Below the pieces are notes generated by a model. The model worked only from the letters and a program-made list of their open reading frames with translations, was not told where the DNA came from and did not search any database. This document shows, piece by piece, positions 31,251 to 54,517 of a stretch of 64,000 bases of DNA (the first letter of the stretch is position 1; each line of letters begins with the position of its first letter). The position numbers were made by a program, and so were the translations under genes. Source of the DNA: Trichomonas vaginalis G3 (Eukaryota; Parabasalia; Trichomonadida; Trichomonadidae); NCBI RefSeq assembly GCF_026262505.1, contig NC_067205.1, forward strand, positions 25,611,693 through 25,675,692, given 5' to 3'.

Positions 31251-31256
31251 TTTCAA
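31251..31256. repeat. Target-site duplication TTTCAA, left copy
   Basis: The six bases TTTCAA immediately precede the left terminus AGTAGTATATG. The same six follow the right terminus at 54512-54517. Polintons make 6-bp duplications. Confidence 0.92.
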
Positions 31257-31723: not shown

Positions 31724-32018
31724 TGAAATGGAAATCATTGATGACATTAAAGAGGATGGAATTCCTAAATTTTGTAGAAAAACCTTTAGAACTAAGTTAG
31801 GAGCATATAAACGTAGAGTATTAAATCCTGAATACATAAAACATTTATTTAAAAAGGAAGACTGTGAATTATTAAACGTTAATGAATATGAAAATGCTAA
31901 ATCAAAACTGAGATATAAATATATTGGAAGTGATGAAAGGTGTAAAGATAAAGATAAAGTTTATTCAGTTTCTGTTGTAAACAGAAATTCATCAAAAGTG
32001 ACACCTCAGAAAAGCTAA
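31511..32018 (+). pseudogene. Broken terminal-repeat gene with duplicated EDCELLN unit
   Basis: The frame starts inside the left terminal repeat (MMSDIPRLIKHCLNPEWVK) and can be followed to 32018 across one frameshift near 31626 and an in-frame TAG near 31671. Two copies of a roughly 35-residue unit are present: NPEWVKLQFKNEDCELLNEY in the first and NPEYIKHLFKKEDCELLNVN in the second, each followed by a polar segment (RYKYIG, then RPHK between the units). This repeated unit recalls DNA-binding repeats carried by large DNA viruses and trichomonad repeats, but the function is not known to me. The gene is cut short by the foldback structure at 32134. A possible C-terminal remnant, with LGIRKHLGDYGKSSEFF, lies at 33231-33351. 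The right terminal repeat carries only the first 15 codons of the same gene. Confidence 0.6.
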
Positions 32019-32133
32019 AATATTGAATTTTTGGAACTTTTGATAGAGCACGTTTTTAAATATTAATTAAAGTAAATGTATATTTTGTAAAGATTCTTTT
32101 TAATAAAAAAATAAAATTTTGAAGAAGAACACA

Positions 32134-33049
32134 AAATCTTCTGAAAAATAATATCACATAAACTCATATTATTTTCTAATATATAACTATTTTATATAAA
32201 AATCAAATTCAATGATCTTAAAAGCGAAGGATAAACCTCAAAATTTACGAATATAATGAGTGAAAATATAATGCTTATCTATCATAAAACCATATGAAAT
32301 ATTAATTTTTGCTTTACGCCTAATTTTTGACGACAATTAGCAAAAAATGTTAAATGTTAACACTCAGTCCATTTGAATATGAAAAATAAAATTGACTTTG
32401 ATTAAATTTTATTTATCATGCAATTCTTCTTGCGACCAAAGATTTGAATAAAATTTCAAAAAATAAGATAGCTTAAAAAATAATATACGGTAGTGTTTAC
32501 TAATAGATGAATAGTATAAATTCTATTAAAATGGATTTGATCCAAAAAAATATATAAATTTGATCATAAATAAAATCGTTTTAAATTACTTCTTCATTTA
32601 AATTATAACAATTATTTTTGGTTTTATATTTTTTTGGATCAAATCCATTTTAATAGAATTTATATACTATTCATCTATTAGTAAACACTACCGTATATTA
32701 TTTTTTAAGCTATCTTTTTTTTGAAATTTTATTCAAATCTTTGGTCGCAAGAAGAATTGCATGATAAATAAAAACATTTAATCAAAGTCAATTTTATTTT
32801 TCATATTCAAATGGACTGAGTGTTAACATTTAACATTTTTTGCTAATTGTCGTCAAAAATTAGGCGTAAAGCAAAAATTGATATTTCATATGGTTTTATG
32901 ATAGATAAGCATTATATTCCCACTCATTATATTCGTAAATTTTGAGGTTTATCCTTCGCTTTTAAGATCATTGAATTTGATTTTTATATAAAATAGTTAT
33001 ATATTAGAAAATAATATGAGTTTATGTGATATTATTTTTCAGAAGATTT
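32134..33049. repeat. Foldback structure: 0.43-kb inverted repeat with 60-base loop
   Basis: The arm 32134-32563 is nearly the reverse complement of 32624-33049, with only scattered differences, leaving an AT-rich loop of about 60 bases. The arms begin AAATCTTCTGAAAAATAA and meet at GGATTTGATCCAAAAAAA. No transposase is encoded. A further, less perfect inverted match joins 31985-32010 with 33185-33215 outside the arms (AACAGAAATTCATCAAAAGT). The near-perfect arms imply recent origin or gene conversion between the arms. It separates the broken gene at 31511-32018 from its possible C-terminal remnant. The remaining DNA from 33050 to 33414 has only that remnant and the promoter of the next gene. 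Confidence 0.88.
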
Positions 33050-33395
33050 CATTCTATATGCCTATGAAAAGTACTCTCAAAACTAACTTTTTCCTAATTA
33101 TAATTAAATCTAGAATATTGTATTATGCTTAGTATTATTTCATTTTTCTCATTCAATTTAGAATTTACAAATGTCAAAAAATTGAGAGCTGTTACTTTTG
33201 ATGAATTTCTGTTTATTACATTTCATATAATAACTGGCACACGTTAGGGATAAGAAAACATTTAGGAGATTATGGTAAAAGTTCTGAATTTTTTAAATCT
33301 AGTATATACGAGAGAGTAAAAGAAATTAGAAATAATTATTTTCATGAATAAAAAATAAACTTTAAAAATTCATGTCTTACATTTTTGAATAATTT

Positions 33396-33414
33396 ATTTT
33401 TTATTTCGTAAGAA
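33396..33414 (+). promoter_or_regulatory. Element-specific start motif, copy 1
   Basis: TTTTATTTCGTAAGAA ends directly at the ATG of the gene at 33415. The same string stands directly before the ATG at 39667. Other element genes have related T-rich tracts followed by a short spacer and TAA-ATG. It is read as a Polinton promoter or leader shared between genes of the element. Confidence 0.5.
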
Positions 33415-34517
33415 ATGAGCGTCAAAACTAACAATGTTAAAAAATTAGGATTCACAAACAGGGAAATAAAGGATATATTAGAGGAGGCGGGTTATGAGGT
33501 TGATAAATATTATTTAAGAAATTGTCAAAAATTCGCGGAGTTTTTAAATGAGTTTGATTATGATGGAAAAATGAATAAAGATGATGTTATAAATTTCTTA
33601 TATCCCACATCTAAAGAAGAAAAACCTAAAGAACCTGATGTTTTCCCTGAATATTATGAAGAACGGATTAAAGATGATGAATATGATGAAATTGAAAGAC
33701 TGGAAAAAATAAGAGATGAAATAGATGAAAAAATTAAGGAATTAAGAGAAGTTGAAAAATATAATGAAAATGAAGTAGAGGGTTTAATGAATATCCCAGC
33801 TTCAGAATCAGAAGTTCAGAAATCTCATGAAGAAAGATATAAAAATTATGTCTCAGAATCAACACAAAATTTATTAGATGGTGAAATAGACGAACACTTT
33901 CAGAAGAAGGTACTAAATTTATTCGTAAACATAAGTTACAATTTATTGATAATGAAGAATACCCCTGTATCCTACTTCACCACCTTTAGATTCCAAAAAT
34001 TCAAAAAAGCTCTTAAAAACGTGACATATGCAACTAATACGATTAAGAAAGAAGATCATGATATTTACACACAATTATTATTTAAATAAATGCACGGGTG
34101 TTGATAAAGTTTTGATTTATTAGATAAAATATCAAAAGAAACCATTGGAACATATAAAATTTTGTGTGATTGTGTTTCATTATTGAAGATACCAATAATG
34201 TTTCATATGAAAGAACAGCACCGAAGGAAGACAAAGTTGAAAGGTCTATACCATTCGTTATTAAGAACATAAAAGATATGAAAACTTATAAACATTATAT
34301 TTATTCATTTATTTCAGAAAAAAATGAAGCAACCCATAAAACATCTTCTCATCATTTTATAGCTATTCATACATTCCTTTTCAAAGTTGTGAAATTAAAT
34401 AAGACAGGAATTAGATTTAATGTATCAGGGTACACATTCTTGAGTAAATTAAAATGTATTCGTCACGTCGCGGATGATAAAAATTTATGTGTTCTTAATT
34501 CATTTTATGGGCTTTAA
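33415..34517 (+). pseudogene. Polinton protein of unknown function, frameshifted
   Basis: A clear start (MSVKTNNVKKLGFTNREIKD) follows an upstream motif shared with another element gene at 39667. The first 165 residues are acidic and helical, with a coiled coil at about 95-125. At about 33903 the likely frame changes to one encoding EEGTKFIRKHKLQFIDNEEY. Further changes are needed near 33990 and 34168 to reach the last open part, ending CVLNSFYGL at 34517. If joined, the product would be about 365 residues. It does not show polymerase, protease, capsid or integrase motifs. Its position directly upstream of PolB suggests a replication or terminal-protein role, but that is a guess. At least three frameshifts mark it as decayed. 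Confidence 0.55.
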
Positions 34518-34548
34518 AAAAATAAAGTTTATTTTTATTCTTACATAA

Positions 34549-37500
34549 ATGAACAAAAACGGAACAGCTAAAATGAATGATAATCAAATTAGAGCAGAAG
34601 GTAGAAGGTTATTTAAACGCTTCTATAACATTCCTGATGGTGTTAATCCTAAAACTCGTAGAAGCTATTTAAATGAAGCAATAGATGCATATGAAGGGTT
34701 TGACATTTCATCAGAAAGTGAGAGATTAGCGAGAATGTTAAATGTTAATATTGATTTCTATTATTGTGATCCTCAACCAGAAGACGTGGACATAAATAAG
34801 GTAGACTTTCCATTAGTGGAATCAATAATGATAGATCCAGAATTTGAAACAGTAAATATTTTATTAACACAGAGTCCATGTGGAAAACTTCACGCTGACA
34901 GAATAACAGACGTTGAAGCACTCACCGGCTATAAAGTTTGTCCATATTGTAAAGAAGAAGTTTATTCTATCCGTGATGATCCAGAAAGGAAAAACCAAAG
35001 AAAATTTTTAAAGCATTGTGAGAAATGTAAAGAAAATAATGGGAGATTAATTCAAGACGTTCAGTTGCAAAAGACACAGCAACCATATGCACCACATATT
35101 ACGAAACAGAAGATATATCAGTGGTTATTAGCTCATAATTTGCAGAAATATTATAAACCGACAAGATATTATATTACTTTTGACTTCGAAACATTAGAGA
35201 CTAAAGAAGAATTACAACTTTCTGAGTGTGCAACTTTGAACGCTTACTTAAAACCATTCATGGTATCATCAACGGTTAAATTAAATGATAAAACATATAC
35301 GAGGAATTTTTGCTTAACTTCGAGTGATTCTTTTATTTCTGATTGGATTGAGTTTTTATTTTCAACCTGTTCATTAGTTGCTAAATCAAATATTGAACAA
35401 TATGAAGAATTATTGAAGCCGCAAACAGTGGGGACTTTGTCTCATACATTAAATGAAAAACAGAAGGAAGTATTTAAAGAACTTCTAGATGAGGAATTCA
35501 ATAAAGTGAATATCATAGGTTTTAATTCGGGAAAGTTTGATTTAAATTTAATTCTTCGTGATTTAAACACTGCAAAATGGAAAATAAAATCAATGCTGGG
35601 TTCATCTTCACAATTTAAGCAAATCATTGTAAAGAAAACAAACGTTCCATATGAATTAAGATTTATTGACATCAGAAATTATATAGCGGGTGGGACATTA
35701 GACCAATTCACTCAAGATTTCGGAAACAATAAATCACGTGTTAAATCCTTTTTCCCTTATCAATTTATCACGTGGGAAAATTACGAAGAAGAATTATATA
35801 AAGTGGAACCATTCACTCAAGATTCATTTTATTCAGCATTAACTCAAGAAACTATATCAGATAGTGATTATCAAATATATCTCAATGATGCTAAAAATTT
35901 TAAGAATAGATTAGAATATTTTATTCATTATTGTAATAAAGATGTTGAAATTATGATTGACCCAATTGATAAAATTATTGAAGAAACATTTGTTTATAAA
36001 ATTGACACGCTTCATAATCTTTCTTTATCATCGAATGCTTCAATGATTCGTTACGCTTTAGCATATAAAAGACTTTAATCCTAATGAAAAATATCCTGAG
36101 GAAGAGATAGAATCAAGTTTGAATTAACGAAAAAGTATTGAAATATAAAATTGAATCATATAAGAAACAAGATGAAAAAGCAGAAGAGATACTAAAAATA
36201 ATGTTTCAATGGATGATTTTCAATACTATCACGATTTAATCCTTTCATCTAAATGCAAAATGTGTGGTAAAGCGTTTACATATGCAATACCAACATTGGA
36301 TAGAATCGATAATGAAAAACCACATACTAAAGAAAATTGTCAGTTAATGTGTTTTATTGCAATGTCGTAAAAATCAAAAAAGATGAAGATGTTCAACGTT
36401 TAAGAATCAATTTAAGAAAATTATGCATTAAAAAATAATTTACCAATGACTTTAGATTCAGTTGAAGCTTATCACATTTCTCCGTAATGGAATTACTGCT
36501 TCTTGTCTATCAAATGTCAACTAGAGTAAATCTTAAAGGAATCACGCACATTAATAAACTTTCAATAAGTCCAGAAACTAAAACTGTATCAAATGAGGAC
36601 ACCACCAACATTATGACTCATTTCGTTGGTGTTGATTTTAATTCATTATATCCTTCATCATTTTCATCTAATCCTCATGATTTCATTCAAATACTGACCA
36701 TAAAATGTATGCCGGAAGATTGAATGGTGTTATCATTTGTGATACAGCAACAAAGAAAGCAAAAGCACTGGAAATTATTAGAAAGAAAAAATACTTTATT
36801 CGTGGCTGAAGTAAAGGGTCACATTGATGAAAAATACATTAATGATTACATAAACTTTTACCGATAATAAGAAACTTAGATATTAACAGATGAAAAAAAA
36901 CATTGGTAGTTTTATGTATAATTACATAATCAAACAAATCTACCAAGTTGACCAGAAACAGAGAAAATTAACTCAGTAGCATCAACAACAACCAATATCA
37001 ACCATTTTCTTCTTATTATCTTTGTATCTAATCGACAGATTTCATTTTATCATCGAGACATTCAATCCAATTTTAACATTTACTAAAAACACTGTTTTAA
37101 TGAATTTGCGAACGAATTTAATGAACGAAAGACAAAAGGCTGAATTAGAAGGAAATAAAGGAAAAAGTTTATTTGCAAGATTTCGCTTAATGGATCATAT
37201 GGTTATGATGCAATGAATACACAAAATTACGCAAAGACTAAAATAATGAATGCACAGAAGGCACGCGTTGCATGTATGTCAAATAAGTTTAAAAACATAA
37301 GAGAAATAGGAGAGGATACGTATCAACTGATGCTCAAAGATAGATTTTATAGATGTGATTCATGTTTACAAGAGGCATTCTTCACTTTAGATAATGCTAA
37401 ATACTGGTATTTGGTTTTCATTTATGATTTTATGTATAAATGCATGAATGTTAATCGTTTTCATTTCATTGAAGGTGATACTGATTCATCTTATTGGGCA

Positions 37501-38004
37501 ATCGCTGGCGATCCAAATCTTCCTAACACTCAAGCATTTCAAGCAATTGTTACTGATAAACAATTTTATGATAAAAACATTTTCAAATTCGCACCATTTG
37601 ATTTCTTCTGTTTTGATGAGAAATTTAAACCTAAATTAAAGAATAAAGCTGAAGAAAAAGCACATGAGAAAAAGTTATTGGATTTAGCAATTGAGAAACA
37701 AGGTGATAACATGGTTGCTTTATGCCCCAAGTGTTATACATCATTCAACGGTTCAATTGATGAAAGTGATTTTAAAAAGATTGCACAAAAAATGAAAGGT
37801 GTTAGTTTACGACAAAATAAACAATTAACACCTAAAAATTATTTGGATATAATAAATGATAAAGTGATATTTGATGGTCAGAATATTAATTTACAACTTA
37901 AAAACAGGTCAATGACTCGCTTAACAATCGGTAAGACTGCATTAACAGGAGCACACACTAAGGCTGTATGTTGTGAAAATGGATGTTGTATGCCATTTAT
38001 TTAA
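34549..38004 (+). pseudogene. Protein-primed DNA polymerase B (Polinton pPolB), frameshifted
   Basis: The first 509 codons are open: a zinc-binding CPYC/HCEKC pair (about 151-180), then the 3'-5' exonuclease motifs FDFETLE (Exo I), GFNSGKFDLNLI (Exo II) and YCNKDVEIM (Exo III). The rest is in pieces. Between them all polymerase motifs survive: DFNSLYPSSF (motif A, 36640s), NGSYGYDAM (motif B, about 37190) and EGDTDSSYWAI (motif C, about 37475). At least six frameshifts are needed (near 36072, 36127, 36200, 36345, 36725-36900 and 37180), so no full enzyme can be made. Between exonuclease and palm lies an HNH-like zinc module (36205-36390). The family replicates linear DNA from a terminal protein. 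The gene follows the unknown gene at 33415 and precedes the integrase. Confidence 0.93.
36205..36390 (+). other. HNH-like zinc module within the PolB gene
   Basis: The translated piece holds CKMCGKAFTY, then TLDRIDNEKPHTKENCQLMC and, after a one-base shift, YCNVVK. The order C-x2-C, DRID, H-x3-EN, C-x2-C-N is that of HNH nuclease and related zinc-ribbon folds. It sits where terminal-protein-binding and palm-entry segments of protein-primed polymerases are found. Whether it was catalytic cannot be told. Confidence 0.6.
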
Positions 38005-38126
38005 TACAATTTAAAATTTTATTTTTAATGAAATGCCACAGAAGAGACAAAAGGAACTGTTAATGATGGTTTTGATTCTTGATCAAAGAGGTGGGGGGGT
38101 AAAACATTTATTTTATTTTTATATAA

Positions 38127-39647
38127 ATGGATAGTGTAGATTTAAAAAATTTAATTGGTGATTTAGTATTTAATCAAAATTTTCTTAATTATTATGATTT
38201 AAAAGCATATCTCCAAAAACATAATAACAATATAACGGGTGATGATATGGAATATTATTATCCATATTATAAAAATGAAATTTTGAAATATCATGATAAA
38301 ATAATTTCTAAAATTAAAGACAAAATTAAAAATAATGAATATACAAAGGGAAAAACTAAATCACAATTTAAACAATTGAAAGATTTCAAAAATAAAGTAT
38401 TAACAGAAGAAGATATTGATGAATTATATAATTTATATAATCCTGAGCCGCAAAAGCCAAAGGAACAAAAGCCAAAAGTGCAAAACGCCCAGGTCCTTCA
38501 GACCATAAATGATGCACAAGCTTTAATTTATGATTCATTAGTTAAACCATATTCAGCCCGACTTTTAAATGAAGATCAACTTTTGGAATTCATCCTTCAA
38601 CATAAACTCGAAGCGGGAAAGTATATCAAACCTTTATATACAGTATATTTAAAACAAATGAATAGAATACATCCAGAATTAATGAAAGGAGGAATGAATT
38701 CCAAAATCAAAGCAGATAAAATTAAATCACTTGCAATACCAAAACCTCCAACAGTAGTACCTCCTCCTCCTTCAGTTAATCCTTCATCATTCACTTTATT
38801 ATATCCATTTCAAACATTAAAGAAGCAAAAAGATTTTAAAAAGGATTTCAAGATATTAAATAAACCAATTGACCCAAAAATTCAACCGTTAAAGGAAAAA
38901 TTTAGTCGCCCTTCATTTGCTCCATATCCATATTCATACGAAATCGATCATTTAGAATATTCAAAAGGAAACGTTACTTATTTATTTGCCATTAACATTA
39001 ACACTAGATATTTATATTGCATTCCGGTGAAAGGGAAAACAGAACAGGAAACAAGAAGAGCTATACAATACTTACTAGATCATGAAAGAGTAGATAATAT
39101 AAAGGGTGATGGTGATAAAGGATTTCAGGCAGCTATGGCTCATTATTTCCCACAAATTAATTTTTACTTTTCATCCTCTCCATATACGTTTCATAATAAA
39201 ATAGTTGATGCGGTAATGAGAACTCTTAGAGATGCGTTAGGGGTTAACGGTCAGATATACTGGGATGGAAATCATGACTCCATCATACAGCAGTTAGTAT
39301 ATTATTACAATAATACATGGCATAGAACCATAAACATGAAACCAGTGGAAATGAAAAATGATATTTCAAAAGAATGGGAATATATTAGAAAGCAAATAGA
39401 AAGGTTAAATGATGTTAAACGTGAACAAATTAATTCGGGGCTCATGAATTTTAAACAAGGGGATAAAGTTTTGATTCATCTCGATTATGGAAAAACTGAT
39501 AAATCAATGACAAAAAGAAGACGAAGATTTGACACAATAGCTGAATTTGTTAGATATATTAACGGTAATGTATTAGTTGAAGTTGACAATAAATTAATAG
39601 AAATTCCGATTTATTTTATTACTCCATTATATTTAAATAATATTTAA
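38127..39647 (+). CDS. Polinton retroviral-type integrase
   Basis: An intact 506-residue protein. The N-terminal 270 residues are helical and basic with a PPTVVPPPPS linker (about 211-220). The catalytic core begins about 272: EIDHLEYS gives the first acid, KGDGDKGFQAA the second, and FHNKIVDAVMRTLRDALG the third region, where aspartate stands in the place of the usual glutamate. A WHRTINMKP segment follows and then an SH3/chromo-like C-terminal region (GDKVLIHLDYG). The family cuts and joins element ends into 6-bp staggered target sites, matching the TTTCAA duplications here. The start follows TTTATTTTTATATAA directly. It is the best-preserved replication-side gene of the element. A 32-base stretch at 38475-38506 also occurs in the fibre gene. 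Confidence 0.93.
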   Translation: MDSVDLKNLIGDLVFNQNFLNYYDLKAYLQKHNNNITGDDMEYYYPYYKNEILKYHDKIISKIKDKIKNNEYTKGKTKSQFKQLKDFKNKVLTEEDIDELYNLYNPEPQKPKEQKPKVQNAQVLQTINDAQALIYDSLVKPYSARLLNEDQLLEFILQHKLEAGKYIKPLYTVYLKQMNRIHPELMKGGMNSKIKADKIKSLAIPKPPTVVPPPPSVNPSSFTLLYPFQTLKKQKDFKKDFKILNKPIDPKIQPLKEKFSRPSFAPYPYSYEIDHLEYSKGNVTYLFAININTRYLYCIPVKGKTEQETRRAIQYLLDHERVDNIKGDGDKGFQAAMAHYFPQINFYFSSSPYTFHNKIVDAVMRTLRDALGVNGQIYWDGNHDSIIQQLVYYYNNTWHRTINMKPVEMKNDISKEWEYIRKQIERLNDVKREQINSGLMNFKQGDKVLIHLDYGKTDKSMTKRRRRFDTIAEFVRYINGNVLVEVDNKLIEIPIYFITPLYLNNI

Positions 39648-39649
39648 TT

Positions 39650-39666
39650 TTTTTATTTCGTAAGAA
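39650..39666 (+). promoter_or_regulatory. Element-specific start motif, copy 2
   Basis: The string TTTTATTTCGTAAGAA directly precedes the ATG, identical to the one before 33415 although the two coding sequences differ after the first codons. Confidence 0.5.
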
Positions 39667-39921
39667 ATGAGTGACAACGAAGCAGCCAAGAGTCCAGACG
39701 ATGAATATAAAAAGAAACTAAACAGAATTAAATCAAAAATATGCTATTACAAAAAGAAGCCGCAATGTGGTGGGGTTGAAAACGATAAAGAGAGGAAAGA
39801 AATAATCGAAAAATTAGAAACTTATCGTTCAATCATTAAACTGAGTGAAGCAAAAATAAAAGAATTTAATAGAATAAATAAATTGATTGGAAGAGATGAA
39901 TTTAATAAAGATGAATTTTAA
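39667..39921 (+). CDS. Small basic Polinton protein
   Basis: An 84-residue, lysine-rich protein (MSDNEAAKSPDDEYKKKLNR) with helical, coiled-coil-like sequence and two cysteines. No family was recognised. It is preceded by the same TTTTATTTCGTAAGAA motif as the gene at 33415, which argues that it is a real gene. It lies between the integrase (19 bases away) and the long tandem array. Confidence 0.55.
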   Translation: MSDNEAAKSPDDEYKKKLNRIKSKICYYKKKPQCGGVENDKERKEIIEKLETYRSIIKLSEAKIKEFNRINKLIGRDEFNKDEF

Positions 39922-39948
39922 AACTCAATCCAAATTTAATTTTTTCAG

Positions 39949-40994
39949 TGCTACCATGTTACCATGTGCTACCAGGTCAATTAACTTCTCTGAAAAAATG
40001 AGACAACATGACATTTTGACAACATCACGGGAGGAAGGTATTTATGAATTATTTTTGAAGAACTGAAGGTGCTACCATGTTACCATGTGCTACCAGGTCA
40101 ATTAACTTCTCTGAAAAATGAGACAACATGACATTTTGACAACATCACGGGAGGAAGGTATTTATGAATTATTTTTGAAGAACTGAAGGTGCTACCATGT
40201 TACCATGTGCTACCAGGTCAATTAACTTCTCTGAAAAAATGAACAACATGACATTTTGACAACATCACGGGAGGAAGGTATTTATGAATTATTTTTGAAG
40301 AACTGAAGGTGCTACCATGTTACCATGTGCTACCAGGTCAATTAACTTCTCTGAAAAATGAGACAACATGACATTTTGACAACATCACGGGAGGAAGGTA
40401 TTTATGAATTATTTTTGAAGAACTGAAGGTGCTACCATGTTACCATGTGCTACCAGGTCAATTAACTTCTCTGAAAAAATGAGACAACATGACATTTTGA
40501 CAACATCACGGGAGGAAGGTATTTATGAATTATTTTTGAAGAACTGAAGGTGCTACCATGTTACCATGTGCTACCAGGTCAATTAACTTCTCTGAAAAAA
40601 TGAGACAACATGACATTTTGACAACATCACGGGAGGAAGGTATTTATGAATTATTTTTGAAGAACTGAAGGTGCTACCATGTTACCATGTGCTACCAGGT
40701 CAATTAACTTCTCTGAAAAAATGAGACAACATGACATTTTGACAACATCACGGGAGGAAGGTATTTATGAATTATTTTTGAAGAACTGAAGGTGCTACCA
40801 TGTTACCATGTGCTACCAGGTCAATTAACTTCTCTGAAAAAATGAGACAACATGACATTTTGACAACATCACGGGAGGAAGGTATTTATGAATTATTTTT
40901 GAAGAACTGAAGGTGCTACCATGTTACCATGTGCTACCAGGTCAATTAACTTCTCTGAAAAAATGAGACAACATGACATTTTGACAACATCATG
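39949..40994 (+). repeat. Tandem array, nine units of 120-121 bp, left of primase-helicase
   Basis: Units start at 39949, 40069, 40189, 40309, 40429, 40550, 40671, 40792 and 40913, the last being cut at about 40994. Units are almost identical, differing mainly in the length of an A-run. Each starts GTGCTACCATGTTACCATGT and contains CTACCAGGTCAATTAACTTC, GACAACATGACATTTTGACA and CATCACGGGAGGAAGG. In reverse complement the first part reads as three TGGTARCA boxes spaced by about ten bases, an iteron-like arrangement. The same unit appears in opposite orientation at 43402-43752 on the other side of the primase-helicase gene. Confidence 0.97.
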
Positions 40995-41062
40995 GGAAAT
41001 ATGATGCAGTCCAAAAATAAAGTTAGTTTTAAAATTATTTTTATTTTTTTATTCCTATATAA

Positions 41063-43383
41063 ATGACGGCAACAAACAACAACAGCAACTATATCGTTTC
41101 TGATGAAAAAGTTATTGATTCATTAGTTGAGGAATTAGTTGTGGCAGAAACTAAAACCCTCAACGAAAGAATTGGTGAAAACAAGATTGATTTACATAAC
41201 TACCTCAAACACGATGGAGGAAGAGGAAGGAAAACTGGTATGGCTTTATTAGTAAATAAAATTTCAAATTTAACGATTATAGATGTTGATATCAATAAAT
41301 CATACAATGATGAACTTAAAGAAACAGTTAGAAAAGACATTTTATCAAAACTTTCGGATAAAGATGTTATCGTTAAAACCGCTTCAGGAGGTCTTCACAT
41401 TTATTGCAACACTAATTTCTTCTATGCAGTTTCGAACAGAATGATTAAATGTTATTCCTGCAATGATTATGATATCGATATCATGACTTCTATGGATGAT
41501 TCAAAGCGTTCTTTAGTAGTTATGGCTGATTCAAGAGTTCGCAAGAATGCAACAGAACCAATCAATACATACTCATTCATTCGTGGAAGTTATGATTCAA
41601 CATTAACCAGAACAGTGAATGATATATTAAATGATTTGAATATTAAGGTAAGAGTTGAACAGACGAATGAAGAAATAAAGAGTATAATGAATGAAAACAA
41701 AGATGTAAACATTGACGATAAACTTGCCAGAGCATAGTTGATGGCATCTGTGATTTTGAAGTACATAATGACGGTGGAAACATGAATTGAAAAAGAAGTT
41801 ACATTATTCACACTGTTTCAAGCTATTAATTCGTTACCTAATCATTTAATTAATGAAGCCTACGATAACGTTTATAACTTCTGCAGTTTAACAGAAAATG
41901 CAAAAAGTAATTTTGAAAAAGCACGTGGTAGATATGCACATTTAATGACTTCTCCATTGTTTTGGTGAAGATTCTAAAACTATATCAAAAGGAATATTAT
42001 GATGAATATGTTTTACCTTTATTACGTAAGCCAAAAATAACATTTGATATCAAACTTGATGACTCGTTTTTGATAACAGATATTAGACGCAAGGCTGAAA
42101 ATCATCAGTATAAAAACAGTTCTGAAGTAATTGAGGATTTATCACGTGTAATCCGTTTTGTAGATTGTGGAAACAAATATTTCATTCAAAAGGACTATAA
42201 TATCCACAACAAAATGAATCAAATATCATTCGTTCTTCAATCAAACATGAAAGAGTCACTTAAAATGATTAAATTATTTAAAGAAGAAGGTAAAACAATA
42301 ACAGCATGGGATGTACTATTAAATCAATTATCCTCATTAACCGTTAAGGGTGTTTGCTTTAAATCTGATTCCCCAGATGTTTTCTCAACGTTTCAAGGTT
42401 ATAAATACAACATTCTCGAAAAGCTTGATTACTCAAAAATTGAGATGTTTATGAATTTCATTAAAGAAGCCATTTGTGATAATAACGATGAAGTGTATAA
42501 ATACCTTCTCGGCTGGATTGCATCAATGATTCAACATCCTGGAATCAAGAATGAAACAGCAATTATTTTGAAAGGACTTCAGGGAACAGGTAAAAACAGA
42601 TTTACAGACATTATTTCTGAACTTCTCGCTGGTTATTCATGTAAAAACATTACCGAAATAGGTGAGTTAACGGGTAATTTCAATTCAGTAGTTGAGAATA
42701 AAATGTTTCTTGTACTTAATGAACTCAAGAATGTAGGTGAAGACAGACTCGCAAACTTCAACGCTTTGAAATCAATTATAACGGATAATGAGATTAGAAT
42801 TAATGAAAAGAATCAACCCAGAAGAACTGCTCAGAACGTTGCAAACTTCATTTTCGTAACTAACAACGTCTACCCTGTCAAAATTGAAGTTGGAGACAGA
42901 AGATACGTAGTTTTAAGAGTTAATGGTAAATTTAAGGGTCAATTTGATTATTTCAAGAATTTAATGGATTCATGCACAAAGGAATTTTATGATAACCTTT
43001 TAACATATTTTATCAATTACGACCTTTCATCATTTAATGTACGAATCATTCCGATGACTGAAGCCAAACAAGATTTAATTGAATTATCAACAAATCCTTT
43101 AGATGTATGGATAAATACACATTATGATGAATTGTGTGCAGGTATGACGTGTGAAAATGCTCTATTCTGCAAACCATCAGACATGAAAGACAAGAATTTC
43201 CAAATGAGTATTAAGGATAAATGTGATAGGAAACATAGAAGAATAGACGGTAAACAAACATGGTGTTATGTTTTGAAAGAAGAAATGAAAGGATTATATA
43301 AACAGGTTGAACCAAACGATAATGAGGATTCATTTACTGATGATGAAATACCTGTAAATGAAGCTTTATTAAGTATGATTTGA
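41063..43383 (+). pseudogene. Archaeo-eukaryotic primase fused to SF3 helicase, frameshifted
   Basis: The N-terminal part (41063-41737) shows the archaeo-eukaryotic primase motifs IIDVDINKS (catalytic DxD), SGGLHIY (SxH) and DYDIDIM. The C-terminal part (41962-43383) is a superfamily 3 helicase: Walker A GLQGTGKNRF at about 42574, Walker B MFLVLNELKN, sensor FIFVTNNVYPVKIEVGDRRY and the D5-like C-terminal segment. The 225 bases between keep coding potential in other frames (IVDGICDFEVHNDGG; then AYDNVYNFCSLTENAKSNFE), so a single protein of about 770 residues was broken by several small shifts and one stop. The architecture equals the D5-like primase-helicases of NCLDVs, virophages and some plasmids. 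It is not part of the usual Polinton core, which primes from protein. It may drive replication from the flanking repeats. Confidence 0.88.
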
Positions 43384-43401
43384 ATTTATTTTTGCATTAA
43401 T

Positions 43402-43752
43402 CCTCCCGTGATGTTGTCAAAATGTCATGTTGTCAACATTTTTAAAAGAAGTTAATTGACCTGGTAGCACATGGTAACATGGTAGCACCTTCAGTTCTTC
43501 AAAAATAATTCATAAATACCTTCCTCCCGTGATGTTGTCAAAATGTCATGTTGTCTCATTTTTTCAGAGAAGTTAATTGACCTGGTAGCACATGGTAACA
43601 TGGTAGCACCTTCAGTTCTTCAAAAATAATTCATAAATACCTTCCACCCGTGATGTTGTCAAAATGTCATGTTGTCAACATTTTTAAAAGAAGTTAATTG
43701 ACCTGGTAGCACATGGTAACATGGTAGCACCTTCAGTTCTTCAAAAATAATT
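43402..43752 (-). repeat. Inverted tandem array, three units, right of primase-helicase
   Basis: Three copies of the 120-bp unit of 39949-40994 in the opposite orientation, the first and last incomplete. They begin CCTCCCGTGATGTTGTC and include TGGTAGCACATGGTAACATG. Two of the three have a variant centre (GTTGTCAACATTTTTAAAAG) not found in the left array, while the middle one matches the left units. With the left array they bracket the primase-helicase gene symmetrically. Confidence 0.95.
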
Positions 43753-43826
43753 AATTATTGAATAACCTAAAAACATTAACGTAAACATATATTTTTGGTC
43801 GTTTATGATAAAAATAAATGGTTCAT

Positions 43827-44491
43827 TTACTCACAATATTTTTGTACAAAACGACTCCAAACTTTTAACTTCTTTTCTGCAGTTTCTAATGCTATCTTAG
43901 CGAGTTCATATTCTCTAAATTCTCTCTTTAAATCTTCTTGTTCCCATTGGTCTAGTTCGTATGGAGAATCTCTACAACCATAACATATCTCACGTTCGTG
44001 TTCTAATTGTTTTTCACACATTTTTCTAACTTCTTCTTCAAACAAATGTTTAGCATTCTCTACTGTATCTTCGAGTTCATCTTCATCTAATTTCTCATGA
44101 ACTTTCTTGTCTATGGAGTCCATAATATCTTTGACATAAAATGCATACTTTACAGAGCACCATTCAGCAACAAAATGAACGAGGTCAGGATGTATGTAAA
44201 TACCTTTGAATTCATTTATAACACCCTTAGTAAGCTCATAAAATGCTTGTTTGAGGTTGAGCCACTTTTGGCTCGACCGTATTCATTCATCCAAAACTCA
44301 ATAATTTCCTGCATTTTAGTACTATTGAGAAATCTGTTTAAATGGTTTAACCTTCCCACTTCTCTTGTCATCTTTGTTGCATTAATGTAACCATCCTTGT
44401 CTCTACGTAAGACTTCAATACCATTATAAGTGCCTTTTGTGAATGTTTCACCATTAGATTTGTTCGTGAACGTCTGTGCTTCGACTGACAT
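43827..44491 (-). pseudogene. KilA-N domain protein, one frameshift
   Basis: The start MSVEAQTFTNKSNG is preferred over an ATG six codons upstream, because family members begin close to the domain. Residues 20-60 carry the KilA-N core, with YNGIEVLRRDKDGYINATKM followed by LNHLNRFLNSTKM. After GRAKSGST the frame must shift by one base near 44273 to continue NLKQAFYELTKG, then IYIHPDLVHFVAEWCS and VKDIMDSIDKK, reaching the open C-terminal coiled part that ends VQKYCE at 43827. Total length about 222 residues. KilA-N is a DNA-binding domain of phages and large DNA viruses, found also in Polintons of trichomonads. Its role is likely regulatory. A single indel makes it a recent pseudogene or an assembly error. 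Confidence 0.82.
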
Positions 44492-44600
44492 TTCTGTTCT
44501 TACATACAAAATAAAAAAATAAAAATAAATAAAGTTGAGGTGAAGAGGTGAGATCTCACCTGTTTTTTATGATAGTAGTGAAATAAAATTTTGTTATTAG

Positions 44601-44783
44601 TTATTTTATCATCATTTTATTAAGTTCATCTTTAGTTAATAATTTGAATGGATTCACTAATGTTCCACCTTGAGTCACAACACCTGCCCCGACTAATTGT
44701 GAAGAACCTGGGATAAGTACTCCATGAAATGATTTCATTGGTATCATTAATTTAGAAATAGTTGGCTTAATTAATTTTGTCAT
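44601..44783 (-). CDS. Small Polinton protein, 60 residues
   Basis: A short basic, hydrophobic protein (MTKLIKPTISKLMIPMKSFH) with GSSQLVGAGVVTQGG in the centre. The upstream TTTTTATTTTAGTATAA-ATG matches the start motif of other element genes. Its size and glycine/valine-rich core recall small virion peptides. No family was recognised. Confidence 0.45.
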   Translation of the reverse strand: MTKLIKPTISKLMIPMKSFHGVLIPGSSQLVGAGVVTQGGTLVNPFKLLTKDELNKMMIK

Positions 44784-45823
44784 TTATACTAAAATAAAAA
44801 TTTAAATTATGCCGTTCGCTCTTTTGGAGCTCAGGACTTTCAGTCCGTTCTAAAGTTTGTTTCACAAACATTGAGCGTTCATTGAACTCTATACCATGCG
44901 AATACAGTCATAAATGGTGGCATGTATTCTTTACTTTGTCCCGTTGTTTGTGTATATCCTGAAACGAAATGTGTATGGTTTCCTTCTCCCTGAGTGTCAC
45001 TCCAGTAACAATTTATAGCAAACTTAACGTCGTCTTTAACATCATATCCTTTACCTTTTGTCATTCCTGACCAATCACAATATCTATGCTTATGCCAACC
45101 CGCTTGAGATGTACTTAAATCTATGTAGTGACTGTGTGCAGGTAAATTTTCACCTGAAATCGTTTTACTTTCCCCTGTTTCCTTTGAAGAGTTTGCACAA
45201 TACAAAAACCTGTCAACTATTTGTTCCCATGCACCAACACCAAACATTACTTGAGGACCTCTTGCATCCATAGATGTATAAATAGAACCTACTGGGTTCA
45301 TTAAATCAAACATATGAGATATTATAGGATTGTCTCTTTTGAACTTAAAATATAGTGCAACTATTTCAGGTTTCTTCTGGTTTGTGTTAGAATATTTTTT
45401 ATAATATAATCTTATGTTTTCAGGGTAGGTAAAATCTTGACTATAATATTTATTTCTGTCATCTGTATAATAATATACTATTCTCGTTTTTTCTATTGCA
45501 TTATATCTTTTATATCTATAATAATCTAAATATAATGTTAGCTTTTGTTCATCTACACGTGGTGTTCTGTCGTCATCTCCATAGTCATAATAATATGGTG
45601 CTGGAGCTGGGTCAGGCAATGTCATATCTACCATTTCATAAACTCTTAAATATTTCTTTTGTTCGTCTCCATATAAGTTTAAGTAGCAGTTGTTGTCTAA
45701 TGGAACTTTAACTTGTGTACCATCATTCTTTTTATAGCTTACATACATTTCATTGTTATTTTTCGGAATGAGTTTACACCGTGCACCATTTTTTAAGGAG
45801 TGTACAAACTGCCATCTAAAATA

Positions 45824-47126
45824 TAGGGTGTCCAAAGGTGCGTTTAGCACAGCGCTCTATATGAGACTATTAAAGGAGATATATGCTGATTATAAATATA
45901 TAATAAAAAATATGAATTTATGTATATGATGAGTAAGTTGTATTTTGGCGCCATGCCGGGATATAAAATGAATTTTGAGACAAGAGGCGGTTTCGCGGGA
46001 AATTTTGGCGTTTTTTTTTCATTTTTTTAATGAATCATAAAGAAAACATCCTCGCTCTTGCAAAAAAATGCAAAGACTGTAAAAAAATCTACGAGACATT
46101 GGTAAAATGCTTCGGTATGGATGCTCCTAGCTATTCCACTGTAACGTATCATGTTAGGATGTATCACTTCATGAACAAAAAGGCGCCCATCATAAAAATT
46201 GACAAAAAATCGCCGGATCAAAGAAAAATCAAAGCGATTCTTCAAGCGCTAGATGAAGACCCAAGAGCATCACTCAGAAGGATAGAGGAGATGACAAAGA
46301 TACCACGTACAACAGTCAGTTATTATCTGCACAATTATTTGAACTACAAACTAGCGTATACACGTTGGGTTCCGCACAACCTTAATTCAGTTCAAAAAAA
46401 ATCTAGAGTCCAATCTTCGAAAGAGCTCCTCTCTATATTGGGTGCGTACCAATCCAAGAAGTTTCGCTTTTTAGTAACAGGGGACGAGTCTTGGTTTCAA
46501 TATGCAACAGAAGCCAAAATCATGTGGATCCCGAAGGATGAAAATCCGCAAACATTCCCGAAGAAAAAAATTGACACACCAATGATGATGTTGTCGGTTT
46601 TTTGGGGCGTGAATGGCATCATCGCAATTGATATTCTTCAAAAACCTAATACGATGAATGCTCAGTATCTAATTGACAATGTTCTTACTCAAATTATCAA
46701 TTCTGATGAGTTTGAGAAATCCAAACAACAAAAACAAAAGTTTGCAATTCATTTTGATAATTCAAGAGTTCACAAAAGTCATAAGGTAATGAATTACTTG
46801 GTGGAAAACAATGTCAAAGTTGTTCCAAACCCAATTTATTCACCTGATATTGCACCCTCTGACTTTTATTTATTCGGCACGCTAAAAAAGAGAGCTGAAG
46901 GACGCGAATTCGCGAGTCCAGATGATCTTGAAAATTTTGTAAGAGAGCAATTTGAGCAATTTTCTCATGATGATTTAAAGCGTGTCTTTCAAGCCTGGAT
47001 CGATCGCTGCGAACGCGTGATTGAATCCAATGGTGATTATATTTAAATAAACTTTATATATATGTAACTTGTTTATTTCTATTCGCAGTATTCAGGTTTG
47101 TGCTAAACACACCTTTGGACACCCTA
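45824..47126 (+). mobile_element. Tvmar1-type mariner transposon, apparently intact
   Basis: The element is 1303 bp, with 28-bp inverted ends starting TAGGGTGTCCAAAGGTG at both sides and differing at one position (GCGTTT against GTGTTT). It is flanked by TA on each side (45822-45823 and 47127-47128), the mariner target. It encodes one full transposase. Length, ends and transposase fit the Tvmar1 family described in T. vaginalis. It lies in the opposite orientation to the fibre gene it interrupts. Confidence 0.95.
46030..47046 (+). CDS. Mariner transposase, DD34D
   Basis: A full 338-residue transposase. Residues 1-110 hold two helix-turn-helix parts (SLRRIEEMTKIPRTTVSYYL). WVPHNL (about 117) is the mariner linker motif. 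The three catalytic aspartates are in VTGDESWF, AIHFDNSRVHKS and SPDIAPSDFYLFG; the last two have 34 residues between them, the D,D34D form of the mariner family. There is no stop or shift, so it could be active. It catalyses cut-and-paste movement at TA sites. The 83 bases after the stop hold the right terminal repeat. Confidence 0.96.
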   Translation: MNHKENILALAKKCKDCKKIYETLVKCFGMDAPSYSTVTYHVRMYHFMNKKAPIIKIDKKSPDQRKIKAILQALDEDPRASLRRIEEMTKIPRTTVSYYLHNYLNYKLAYTRWVPHNLNSVQKKSRVQSSKELLSILGAYQSKKFRFLVTGDESWFQYATEAKIMWIPKDENPQTFPKKKIDTPMMMLSVFWGVNGIIAIDILQKPNTMNAQYLIDNVLTQIINSDEFEKSKQQKQKFAIHFDNSRVHKSHKVMNYLVENNVKVVPNPIYSPDIAPSDFYLFGTLKKRAEGREFASPDDLENFVREQFEQFSHDDLKRVFQAWIDRCERVIESNGDYI

Positions 47127-47836
47127 TATTTATTTTCTTCATTGACAGAAAAGTCACCAACAATAGTTTCAATATTTTTTGTTCCTATCAAACTTTGGTA
47201 TATTTCGTTAACATATGTTTTATCCGCCTTCTTCTCTAACTCATCGTTAACATATGTTTTATCCGCTTTAAGGTCTAAACATCCTGAAACCCATCCTGTA
47301 TCAGCTTTAACTTTAAAAGTCTCAAATGTCCATTCATAATACCGTTCAACCTTTTCTTTAATTTCATTATCTTTTTCATCAACATAAACCAAATTTGCCT
47401 TCTTCTCTAACTCACTATCCACATATGTTTTATCCGCCTTCTTCATTATGTCGTTTAGGAAACCTTCTATGAATTCCTCATTTAAATTAAATCTTCCAAT
47501 CTTCAAAACTTTAGGAAATGCATTTAATGCGTAATATTTCTGTTCTTCTGGTGGAATTGATGTTATATCATCCGTTATTCCTTTAATTTTTGAATTCATA
47601 AATAAAATTTCTTTTATATTTGATATCACTGCACCACCTTTGCAAACGAATTCGAAATGGTCATTTTTCAATACTATCTCCAAATCTCCATATTTCAACC
47701 TTTGCGTTTGTTCTGCCATCTTTGAATTATATGCATATATGGCGTATGTAATGGTCTGAAGGACCTGGGTGCTTTGCGCCTTAAGTTGCTGCGGTTGCTG
47801 TTGTTTAATCATTTATTATGATTTAAAAATAAATAT

Positions 47837-48543
47837 TTAATCCGTTATCTCATCAGCTATTTTTTCTATTTGAAATTGCCATAATATTTCATTCATAAAT
47901 TCTAAATCACAATCAAATAGGTCAGTTATTCTAAATTTAATATTGATAAATCTTTTGAATGAAGAAAAATGAATTCCCGGATAATTGAAACGGATATGAT
48001 AAAGAAAATGTGTTTAAGTTGATGGATAAAATGTTTTGTATTGATGGGTAAGAGTTAGGGTCTAATGTTTGATGTGAAAATCTCATTGGGGTATTAACTT
48101 TATCACATTTGATTAAAATGAAATTGGAACCAGTGTCAGAATACAAAACATCCCCAACATCTTTTTCAAAATTTAATATCCCCAACAATGAACGAAGATG
48201 AGGAGTACAAAATTTAATTTTCAGCGGGAATTTAATAAGGTTATTTATTTCATCAAGTTCAAAAAGTTTATCAGGTTTTGATTTAAAATTTTCTTCATAC
48301 CATACGATAAATGATTCATTTAAATAACTTAAAATCGTGTTAATATCCCATTTCGCTATCACATTATTTATATACATATCATACGTTTTTCATGGTCATC
48401 TTTAATAAATGATATATAATCTGAAGGGTCTAAAAGATGGGATTAAATTTACCACTCACAGAAACGAGAGTAACATTATAAATTCCGCTAACTGTTAAAT
48501 TTAATTCACAGTTATTATTCGAAATAATATTGATAATTGACAT
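47837..48543 (-). pseudogene. Unknown Polinton protein, frameshifted
   Basis: The gene can be followed from MSIINIISNNNCELN at 48543 through NVTLVSVSGKFNPI, then after a shift LDPSDYISFIKDDHEKR, then an open middle (NNVIAKWDINTILSYLNESF to FIQKIYQY, 48377-47937) and, after another shift, FRITDLFDCDLEFMNEIL to DEITD at 47837. About 235 residues if joined. The alternation of hydrophobic residues in the first part suggests beta-strands. By position among virion genes it may be structural. No family was recognised. It shares a 19-base spacer with the divergent gene at 48563, and both have the same length class. Confidence 0.5.
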
Positions 48544-48562
48544 TTTTATTACGATTAAAAAT

Positions 48563-49042
48563 ATGGTAAAGCGTTATTTTCCAGTGATAAATAAAACTAG
48601 AATAAGATTACCTCAAGAATTCATAAATTCAACGAATAAGAAATTCATTCATGTTATAAATTTTAGTGTTTTCAGAAAATATGAGTCAATGTCATATTCA
48701 TCAACAGGTTATATTTCACTTCATTCAAATTTAGTTCAATCAAACCCATATAATGACCATTTCATCAGATTTTCAGATGGTATTAAAAATGTAATTGATA
48801 GATTAAAATATGAACAGATTGACAATATCGAATTTTTGGAATTTTGGTTTAAATATCCCGATGGAAAAAAGATTGAAGTTAAAGATAAAGCTGATACTAT
48901 AACAAAAACAATTACAATGACCGATCCGGATAGTGGGGAACAAAAAGAAATAAAACAAACGATAGAAACTGGTGAAAGATCAATTATTATTGATTATGAT
49001 TCAAAGGATTATTATTCGATAATGTTAATGCTTGAATATTAA
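48563..49042 (+). CDS. Beta-rich Polinton protein, minor virion protein candidate
   Basis: A 159-residue protein starting at MVKRYFPVINKTRIRLPQEF. It has alternating hydrophobic strands (KFIHVINFSVFRKY, YISLHSNLVQSN, FLEFWFKYPDGKKIEV) and no enzyme motif. A small jelly-roll or capsid-cement protein would fit the pattern, but this is inference. It reads against its neighbours on the plus strand. The start is set by the ATG at 48563, since the longer frame would need TTG. Its stop overlaps the stop of the converging gene at 49039 by three bases. Confidence 0.55.
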   Translation: MVKRYFPVINKTRIRLPQEFINSTNKKFIHVINFSVFRKYESMSYSSTGYISLHSNLVQSNPYNDHFIRFSDGIKNVIDRLKYEQIDNIEFLEFWFKYPDGKKIEVKDKADTITKTITMTDPDSGEQKEIKQTIETGERSIIIDYDSKDYYSIMLMLEY

Positions 49043-49710
49043 ATAGCCTTAACAAAGAATTTTTCAAGTGATATTTTATATTCATCAACTATTTTATTAT
49101 AAATATTATTATATGTTAAATGAAGTTCAGTTGTTGTTCCATTCTTTGTTATCTTAATTGTGCTAATATCCTTTATAGGATTTATTTTTGCAACTATTCC
49201 ACAGCATGAAACCTCATCATCTATGAAAAATTGAATCTTAACGTCTGAATCTTGAACATCACAAAGAATGGCGATAATGTGAATTAATGATTCATAAGGT
49301 AAAATAATTAAACCGGATTGGTCAATTTAAATTTATTATTGAATCATAATTATTAATTATTATATCACGGTAAATTTTCATTAATTCAGAATTAATGTCT
49401 ATTTTATATGGGTTCTCGATGTTTGATGAAAGAGGTGGGGGTATGTTGGATAAGTGGGAATTTCAACAGGTTCTTTACCAGGTTCAGATAAAATGATTGG
49501 GTCTCCATTCTCATGGTTTTCTTCATTCTCCTCATTCTTCGGTAAGTCACGAGTTAATAAATTTGGTTGAGTTGCTGACCTTGTTAATTCAGGGCTAACA
49601 TTAACTTTAACATTTTGAATAATTCGTGATTTATCATCATTTACGTTATAACCAACCGTAATCTCTGCTTTTGCGTTAGTGTTCTTTTGACTAGTGAAAC
49701 GTCTTCTCAT
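49039..49710 (-). pseudogene. Candidate minor capsid (penton-type) protein, frameshifted
   Basis: A basic start (MRRRFTSQKNTNAKAEITVG) leads through NVKVNVSPELTRS and an acidic, proline-rich linker. The frame shifts near 49407 to ENPYKIDINSELMKIYRDII and again near 49325 to LIILPYESLIHIIAIL, ending KISLEKFFVKAI at 49039, about 220 residues in all. The last part is beta-rich (KDISTIKITKNGTTTELHLT) like a jelly-roll. Length and genomic place between the fibre-side genes and ATPase suggest the penton-type minor capsid protein, but no diagnostic motif was found. Confidence 0.45.
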
Positions 49711-49742
49711 TTATAATCGAATAAAAAAATATATTTAAACTT

Positions 49743-50637
49743 TTATTTTGCTGGAACTTTTGAATCTATTATTCCCTGTATTTGTTCATGAAGTTGATTT
49801 TTAGCTGTTCATCGAAATTAATAGACCGAATATATTCATTAATTGCATTCTTATAATCATCTGATTTCTCAAATTTTCTTTTATCTGATTCCTTAACTAA
49901 ATCATAAGTTAAACCTCGTTGCTGATATAATGGTTTCTTAATTAAATCTTTGAATGCTTGAGATAAAGCACCTGATGCAATTCTTGCTACTATAATTGGT
50001 TGGAATTGCTGTTTAAGTTCATCTTTAACATTTGCGAAAACTGGATCGAATAAAGCAACTTTAAAGAATTTCTTAGCTGAAATTTCAGGTCTAATATTTG
50101 CATATTGACCATCAAACTGGTTAGAATATCGTGGTAATCCATCCGGTCCCTCTTCAATAGCATTTAATTCTTCATTGAAATAAGAATATGGATTATGACG
50201 GTATGAATTAATTGGACCATTTTCACCTCTCCAATGTATTGTTTAACAGCTTTTCCATTTTCATCAAATTGCATAGGATAACGTTCATTATATACTTTAC
50301 GTTTAGGATAATCAGATATAGTTAATTTATAACCATTTATGACTTTAATATTACCTTGACCATCAGTAACGAAAACTTCATTTATACCATCGGGTTTTCC
50401 ATTTGGACCCGTAATGTCTGCTTCGTGTGCTTCCCAATTTGGACCATGACGTGGCATATGCTTGAGCTTCTGGTAATGTTAAAACGTTTCTCATTGTTTA
50501 ACATCTTTTTGAAGACCAGCAACAATATGAACTAATTCTTTCATTCCATCAGGAACTTTCATAGTTCTATTATATGCACCCCTTTTGTTTGTCCCTTGTT
50601 TTAATGGAACCTGTAGAAGATTTGCTATTTCTGTCAT
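49743..50637 (-). pseudogene. Conserved-looking Polinton virion protein, frameshifted
   Basis: Starts [20 protein letters not shown] at 50637. It continues through LTLPEAQAYA, RHGPNWEAHEADITGPNGKP, a stretch with DGINEVFVTDGQGNIKVING, then YPKRKVYNERYPMQFDENGK. After further shifts come YSNQFDGQYANIRPEISAKK, PVFANVKDELKQQFQPIIVA and LHEQIQGIIDSKVPAK at 49743. About 298 residues would result from joining the pieces; at least four shifts are needed (near 50490, 50455, 50215 and 49800). The DxTGPNGKPDGINEV pattern looks like a calcium-loop-like turn. Position beside ATPase and capsid genes suggests a virion part. No family could be named. Confidence 0.5.
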
Positions 50638-50677
50638 GTTTAATTATAAATAAAAAATAAAAATTAATTATAAAAAG

Positions 50678-51503
50678 TTAATCAAATTTAACACTTCCTT
50701 TATTTAAATCAACTATTATTTTCCATGTTCACCTAATTGCTGATATTGTGTGTAAAGTTCATTAATGCTCATTGGTAAATTCACTTGATAAAGCATAACG
50801 TTCAACTGTTGACGACTAAACCCACTGAAAATGAAAAGTGTTGATAGATTTGATTTAATGTTTGTGCTTAATGCTTTGAAATATTGAACAGCCATAAAGA
50901 ATGAACACTGAATGTGTCGACATTGAGTTAATAACTGATTAAAATATGATTTCTCATTTGTTATTAGTTTTGATTGCACTGCATCATCTAGAAAAATGAG
51001 TGAATGCAAAAATTCTCTATCAAAATTTGAAATAGAAAGTGTTTCAAATAATTCATCCCGTTGTTTATCAATAATTTTATCCTCTAATCCTTGCTTCTTG
51101 ATTGTATTATATAATTCTTTATACATTAAAAAGTTTTTTAAATAATCTTCTGCTTCTTCTTGTGATAAATAAATAATTGGAATTTTGATTAAATGCTTTA
51201 AAGATTCAAATGTATCATCTGAAGGAGAACCTGAACGGTTGATATAAATTAACACATGTGAATGGGGGAAGTGTTAGCAATAATGATAATTTGTTTTAAT
51301 ATCGTTAATGTTTTACCTTTATTTTGTTTACCAATTGCTGCAGTGATTGAATTTAAATAACATTCAGAATATGGAATTTTCATTAATTTTTCCTTAGATA
51401 GAGCATTTCTATTATCACTCAATGCTTCATTAATCATATCATCTACGTATGTATTATATACTCCTGCTAATTCTTCATAAGGGGTGGATGAATTTAAATT
51501 CAT
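50678..51503 (-). pseudogene. Packaging ATPase (FtsK/HerA-like), frameshifted
   Basis: The N-terminal piece (51503-51249) contains the P-loop AAIGKQNKGKTLTILKQI. The second piece (from about 51255 to 50716) contains the Walker B strand SLIFLDDAV and the downstream TQCRHIQCSFF segment with a conserved glutamine. The frame shifts by one base near 51255 and probably again near 50718, where the end would read IIVDLNKGSVKFD. Order and spacing are those of the A32/FtsK-HerA ATPases that pump DNA into capsids in Polintons, virophages and NCLDVs. It lies next to the major capsid gene as usual. The shift between Walker A and B disables it. Confidence 0.88.
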
Positions 51504-51527
51504 TTAATCAAAAATAAATTTATAATT

Positions 51528-53168: not shown

Positions 53169-53237
53169 TTATTAATAAATAAAAAATCAAAATTAAAAGA
53201 TGGAAATGAATTTTTAATTTTAATGAAATAATCAACT

Positions 53238-53447: not shown

Positions 53448-53481
53448 GATAAAAATAATTTTAAAATAATTTATTTTTCCA

Positions 53482-53718: not shown

Positions 53719-53784
53719 TTCTGATTTAATATTAATTAAAAAATATATTTCATCACTTATATTCTAATTTTTATTTAATGATAA

Positions 53785-54511: not shown

Positions 54512-54517
54512 TTTCAA
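54512..54517. repeat. Target-site duplication TTTCAA, right copy
   Basis: TTTCAA directly follows the right terminus CATATACTACT and equals 31251-31256. Confidence 0.92.

Follow-up and report, generated by a model that had tools for sequence, protein, structure and literature searches.

Origin of the question

Why should a Polinton that appears to have PolB also house a primase-helicase gene enclosed by two inverted arrays of short repeats? The question is raised by a 64,000-nucleotide stretch of the Trichomonas vaginalis G3 genome (contig NC_067205.1, positions 25,611,693 to 25,675,692 of the forward strand), which we call the window and in whose coordinates features are given below. The window contains a Polinton, an element of the kind described in T. 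vaginalis as Mavericks, and the arrangement in question, here called the cassette, lies in it between a putative integrase and a KilA-N gene. A terminal-protein replication system is attributed to T. vaginalis Mavericks, and Polinton replication has so far been inferred from PolB alone. Our results suggest that the cassette is probably a self-contained initiator-origin module, in which a PrimPol-helicase of the phage NrS-1 type would recognize iterons through its C-terminal tail and provide a second replication start, and whose arrays would mediate its flipping. The variation found naturally in this one genome is indicative of a further, sequence-specific system of initiation, and it singles out a residue and a base that would recognize each other.

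Anatomy of the cassette and its protein

The upstream array, on the N-terminal side of the gene (39948..40997, plus strand), has a period of 121, 8.7 copies and 99% matches in Tandem Repeats Finder (TRF). It ends 65 bp before the start codon, and the intervening leader (40998..41062, plus strand) is conserved across the other copies. The downstream array, on the C-terminal side (43401..43752, minus strand), is inverted, with a period of 121, 2.9 copies and 95% matches. The two arrays are inverted repeats of each other, with, for example, 355-nt arms that are 96% complementary. A preliminary description, made from the sequence of this stretch, had reported inverted arrays around a primase-helicase gene in a Polinton, and TRF, the inverted-repeat match and the terminal repeats and target duplication of the element all bear this out; its count of nine 120-bp units on the left and three on the right needs adjustment only to the unit length and copy numbers above and to a truncated first left unit. 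The gene, the only one inside the cassette, is broken in the window, as that description had also held in calling it frameshifted. Its open pieces are an N-terminal one with the PrimPol domain, of archaeo-eukaryotic primase (AEP) type (41063..41737, plus strand), and a C-terminal one with the superfamily 3 (SF3) helicase and the C-terminal tail (41932..43383, plus strand).

The unit contains a nearly invariant box, TGACAACATGACATTTTGACAACA, and an iteron block that does vary. The block usually holds three hexamers about 8-10 bp apart, although some units have two or four. The hexamers fall into two classes, GCTACC/GTTACC/GCTACC (GYTACC) and GTCACC (or GTCACT) throughout; a unit has one class, and nearly always one class extends across both arrays. 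Of the GYTACC iterons in the window, the left array has 27 and the right array 9, while the rest of the window has 0.2 per kb, both strands counted.

The gene had been described as D5-like. That it encodes a primase-helicase stands, yet the protein is, from its domain matches and fold, a PrimPol-SF3 protein akin to that of phage NrS-1 and not D5 proper. The helicase part matches PF19263 (1.9e-21) and PF05272 (8.7e-10), and the D5 families (D5_N, Pox_D5) give no Pfam match up to E 0.1. The N-terminal domain matches the PrimPol fold, and the fold of an intact relative, P0001, has an SF3 helicase with the head, body and tail of NrS-1. The AEP catalytic residues (DxD, sxH, D: D74, D76, H112 and D139) are present in 37/37 aligned relatives, and the same relatives keep the active-site residues of primase and helicase alike.

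Covariation of residue 726 with the iteron class

When loci L031-L060 were compared (L058 was excluded from this first table), residue 726 in P0001 numbering was the only place that separated the pure GTCACC loci L038 and L052, which have Gln, from the others; His726 is found in all 26 GYTACC loci compared and in the mixed locus L051. The window belongs to the His class, its codon 726 being CAT (43234..43236, plus strand). With the prediction fixed beforehand, three further loci with known GTCACC arrays had Gln (3/3). Another 20 stretches, taken from a list ranked by similarity to the Gln tail and thus enriched for Gln but unselected for their arrays, had Gln in 20/20 and three GTCACC iterons in view in 20/20. 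Pooled, Gln726 occurs in 25/25 GTCACC loci and a Gln codon in 0/28 GYTACC loci (r2 1.00 between codon 726 and iteron class, p 2.3e-15, for 24 and 28 loci with L066 counted apart).

Such a correlation could be inherited along with neighboring sequence, and the sites around residue 726 are informative in this respect. Between it and the array, codon 730 has an r2 of 0.56, and codons 755, 756, 761 and 768-770 range from 0.01 to 0.11; sites after the stop range from 0.01 to 0.39. On the other side, codon 717 reaches 0.62, where only 4 Gln loci could be read. All four combinations occur at codon 761 (4/24 and 7/28). Because the intervening sites are mostly nearly unlinked, the DNA between residue 726 and the array appears to have recombined freely while residue and iteron stayed matched. 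The upstream arrays, 2.3 kb away, match too (5/5 with Gln; with His, 23/26 pure and 3 mixed). The tail contains a beta hairpin (722-729, 732-739) whose first strand includes residue 726, and in the wider family the corresponding column is Arg, Gln or Lys in 33/37. This pattern is what a recognition contact would give, and it suggests that the tail reads the repeats as the protein's own copying start points.

Homogenization, inversion and presence of the cassette

In the 180.85 Mb genome searched, the unit has at least 260 matches and the gene at least 106 matches listed, from 4,330 first-look candidates. Cassettes were read at 30 places, the window and L032-L060, with L061-L064 standing in where a longer version existed. 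In 30/30 a downstream array follows directly on the stop codon, and 28/30 have the upstream one as well (L047 and L059 are without it); the arrays always face each other.

That the arrays are homogenized, as had been proposed from their near freedom from mutations, is borne out by 190 nearly full units from 48 loci. Units of the same array have a mean identity of 0.963, those from the two opposite arrays of a cassette 0.959 and those from different loci 0.895. When each cassette's opposite arrays are compared with one another and with the average other locus, they are more alike between themselves in 23/24 cassettes, and L037 ties. In the 10-kb loci an array comprises between 2 and 9 units. 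As separate observations, one-strand unit matches extend over 6 kb at C3:7170087-7176119, far beyond the arrays read here, and a 25-bp repeat (CGTAAATGTTTTGTCATGACTTCAT and variants) forms arrays of its own beside the unit arrays in L062, L010 and L079.

Copies could be placed when the integrase or a small open reading frame (ORF) that we call 'pre', which lies between integrase and cassette in the window (39664..39921, plus strand) and served as anchor, was also among the matches listed, absence from these carrying no meaning. All 16/16 placeable copies are found on the downstream side of the integrase; 13 run parallel to it and 3 antiparallel. The gene end points toward the fibre/ATPase side in 22/30 cassettes and toward the integrase side in 5/30, with 3 unassigned. 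Mapped onto the gene tree, the orientation labels require at least four changes, of which well-supported branches force 2, and they show no clustering (134/500 shuffles are as low); the cassette has thus, to judge from this tree, flipped repeatedly. At one locus, L061 (C3:23506279-23516278), two Polinton left halves are joined head to head around a single cassette, in the order PolB-integrase-pre-cassette-pre-integrase-PolB; an 'end-to-end fusion' of Mavericks is mentioned in the published text available.

The preliminary description had reasoned that the same gene and arrays at the same place in every related Polinton would make the cassette a stable accessory part and not a separate element. 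The place is indeed constant among the placeable copies, but the presence is not, and the copy in L063 and the pair in L062 and L163, described below, stand apart. We sampled 19 sites by 620 bp each of integrase-end DNA; these resemble the flank in the window, so that the fractions apply to such sites and are not genome-wide. Runs of the unit were found at 10/19, and at four of these the gene is visible, parallel in L068, L074 and L076 and antiparallel in L066. Another 8/19 have no unit or one left-over unit: in L070, L071, L077 and L080 the sequence continues into KilA-N or the fibre gene, whereas L067, L081, L082 and L084 have in common a 400-bp stretch that takes the place of the cassette. 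This stretch was traced to the fibre gene in one of the four (L161), and ARAGORN finds no tRNA in it although a piece of it looks tRNA-like. The remaining site, L078, has gene remnants.

A probable initiator-origin module

We therefore favor, with the reservations given below, the reading of the cassette as an initiator-origin module because it has the same parts as the staphylococcal type found in Staphylococcus aureus pathogenicity islands (SaPIs), namely a PrimPol-helicase, a tail and iterons behind the gene, together with a further set of iterons ahead of the gene, on the opposite strand. The tail, through the hairpin at 722-739 and residue 726, would recognize the short iterons in both arrays, three per standard unit. 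Bound there, the protein would melt the DNA at the arrays and start synthesis, and the Polinton would thus gain for its life cycle a replication start that is independent of the terminal protein and exists besides the terminal-protein system. As inverted copies of each other, the two arrays would recombine and thereby flip the cassette and stay alike; the module may also be lost in this way. It would be expected to work in either orientation.

Several observations weigh against this reading. Codons 717 and 730 are also linked to the iteron class, so that the covariation could partly reflect shared descent, and most of the later Gln loci come from the ranked list described above. The His loci L033, L037 and L051 have some GTCACC iterons upstream. 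The module is not essential, as 8/19 sampled Polintons are without arrays. Single-stranded DNA of the unit forms no special hairpins (z 1.68 and -0.64). The ratio of nonsynonymous to synonymous polymorphism (pN/pS), 0.063 over 406 pairs from 29 loci, was obtained from copies picked by protein score; for the N-terminal piece it is 0.15 in a set of 10 rows selected through their array or flank, in which one place is counted twice. In viral contigs, a scan with the single protein found no relative and an alignment-based scan found 76 distant ones. Arrays lie within 2 kb of the primase in 8/72 distant viral relatives and anywhere in 16/72, with no claimable enrichment, and arrays that near to the gene are not typical of this group. 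Whether metagenome contigs break at the gene ends through repeats was uninformative, the capsid-control contigs being equally short.

Alternative explanations

An alternative is that the protein does bind the iterons, yet does so to regulate its own expression or the copy number, or else to hold the element, and not to start replication. The upstream array does end 65 bp before the start codon, genes for KilA-N and T5orf172 domains, which are common regulatory company, adjoin the cassette, and covariation shows at most recognition and not its consequence. We nevertheless consider this explanation unlikely, for autoregulation has no need of the second array that stands behind the stop codon in every cassette read, and the active sites of primase and helicase are intact throughout the aligned relatives. 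In addition, according to the accessible text of PMC7581432, the origins of SaPIs occupy the corresponding position with respect to the gene.

A second possibility is that the cassette is a mobile element in its own right that lodges in Polintons and resembles a transpoviron, a linear plasmid or a transposon, the arrays being its terminal repeats. This would fit its terminal-inverted-repeat anatomy, an outer end sequence common to many copies and the presence or absence at one site. The copy in L063 adjoins the ATPase gene, and one pair (L062, L163) stands in a neighborhood without recognizable relatives of the window Polinton's genes above 42% identity; the L062/L045 pair, in this different neighborhood, has a gene 98% identical to that of the window. 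We regard a separate element as quite unlikely, since all placeable copies share one site and side, no recombinase lies inside the cassette, no target duplication was recognized by eye at its ends, and no copy was shown outside Polinton-like DNA among those examined. No free or circular copy was found, although no exhaustive search was made. The earlier interpretation of a captured replicon with its own candidate origins is thus partly supported, the tail-iteron covariation favoring the origins and the constant place speaking against a separate element. A cut-and-paste transposon was rejected, as the sole gene is the PrimPol-helicase and not a transposase, and no duplication was seen by eye at the array ends. 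Near L062 there are DUF4106 genes and genes of Mutator-like elements (MULEs); a second capsid type (P0094) considered for that locus was dropped, its copies lying elsewhere.

That the arrays are a satellite or the passive debris of recombination, agreeing with the tail through common descent only, is very improbable: tandem arrays do grow and shrink, and the gene side has partial haplotype structure (r2 0.56 and 0.62), but codons 755-770, between 726 and the array, have r2 of at most 0.11 with both, codon 761 occurs in all four combinations, the array 2.3 kb upstream also agrees, and all iterons of a GTCACC unit share that class.

Relation to known systems

The gene itself is already known. 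It is almost certainly the 'Mav1.6 DNA primase domain protein' of T. vaginalis Mavericks, being from the same genome and the same kind of element, for which 2,716 annotated copies are given in PMC7845603 against 3,551 of the c-integrase. The main text of that paper, as far as accessible, says nothing on arrays, iterons, inversion or a role of Mav1.6, and 'tandem' and 'replication' occur 0 times in it; the portion of the open-licence PubMed Central literature covered yielded no passage that treats arrays, iterons, inversion or recognition in connection with this gene. What appears to be new is an initiator-iteron pair of SaPI/NrS-1 style in a eukaryotic Polinton, doubled, inverted and invertible, with at least two specificity classes.

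In the accessible text of PMC7581432, SaPI Rep and Cch2 of the staphylococcal cassette chromosome mec (SCCmec) likewise have short direct repeats immediately behind the initiator gene, as do 30/30 cassettes. The cassette differs from them in its second, inverted upstream array, in the inversion of the whole cassette and in iteron number, roughly ten to forty compared with a few. Transpovirons, virophages and Polinton-like replicons also place a primase-helicase in a Polinton-related element, but these are, in the parts of PMC3671162 and PMC4642659 available, TVpol or other superfamily 3 helicase (S3H) fusions, whereas the cassette encodes an NrS-1-like PrimPol with flanking iterons. Also close are the NrS-1 primase-polymerase and the DUF5906/NrS-1-like helicase family. 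The NrS-1 protein is about 20% identical to the cassette protein in structural alignment and belongs to a phage, whereas the host here is a eukaryotic Polinton; it has two 8-nt sites in place of an iteron array on both sides. The NrS-1 site TTTGGTTA was considered for the outer ends of the cassette and dropped as too loose.

In herpesviruses and the 2-micron plasmid, origin-bearing or recombining inverted repeats flip the segment between them. The likeness to the cassette lies in inverted-repeat flipping. We offer only tentatively the wider idea that the initiators form plasmid-like specificity groups, with at least two pairs (His726/GYTACC and Gln726/GTCACC) in one nucleus kept matched despite recombination, and that a Polinton may combine terminal-protein replication with internal, invertible PrimPol origins that flip during replication, as in those systems. 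If true, an initiator-iteron pair of phage or plasmid style would operate in the virus-like elements of eukaryotes, its specificity groups resembling those of plasmids, and this would account for the inversion, gain and loss of the module and for the head-to-head joining of elements.

The host Polinton and neighboring features

The Polinton occupies 31257..54511 (no strand assigned), its ends read by eye from both terminal sequences. Its terminal inverted repeats cover at least 31268-31561 and 54207-54500 and continue to both ends, and a 6-bp target duplication, TTTCAA, flanks it at 31251-31256 and 54512-54517. The packaging ATPase matches PF04665 in Pfam with 24.6 bits (cut-off 22.8), and the candidate for the capsid shares 99% identity with a T. 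vaginalis protein. An Rfam scan of the element gave no match. The open frame at 38127..39647 (plus strand), which we take to be the c-integrase from its motifs and from print on T. vaginalis Mavericks, has no Pfam match up to E 0.1 and no convincing match in the PDB. The putative PolB gene is broken and was assigned from its motifs, with no match in Pfam or in PDB sequences, the latter searched with the C-terminal piece only. PolB and integrase are both named among the genes of T. vaginalis Mavericks in the accessible text of PMC7845603.

The right neighbor of the cassette is the KilA-N gene, broken into two frames (43827..44566, minus strand). On the other side, a T5orf172-domain gene lies between cassette and integrase at L162:369-1446 and L040:3267-3935, and in L162 it is flanked by two unit blocks of its own. 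The 'fibre' landmark is a phage-tail-like gene with a Gp10_C domain (44879..45856, minus strand; PF21939, 5.1e-20); a second phage-tail-like gene, matching a tail-fibre PHROG, is at 47054-47812, and a mariner copy inside the Polinton (46030-47046) splits the two. Near the left end, nested near-perfect inverted repeats with arms of 280, 68, 57 and 43 nt lie at 32134-33049, and a similar stretch seems to be present at L062:571-1492, beside the MULE transposase.
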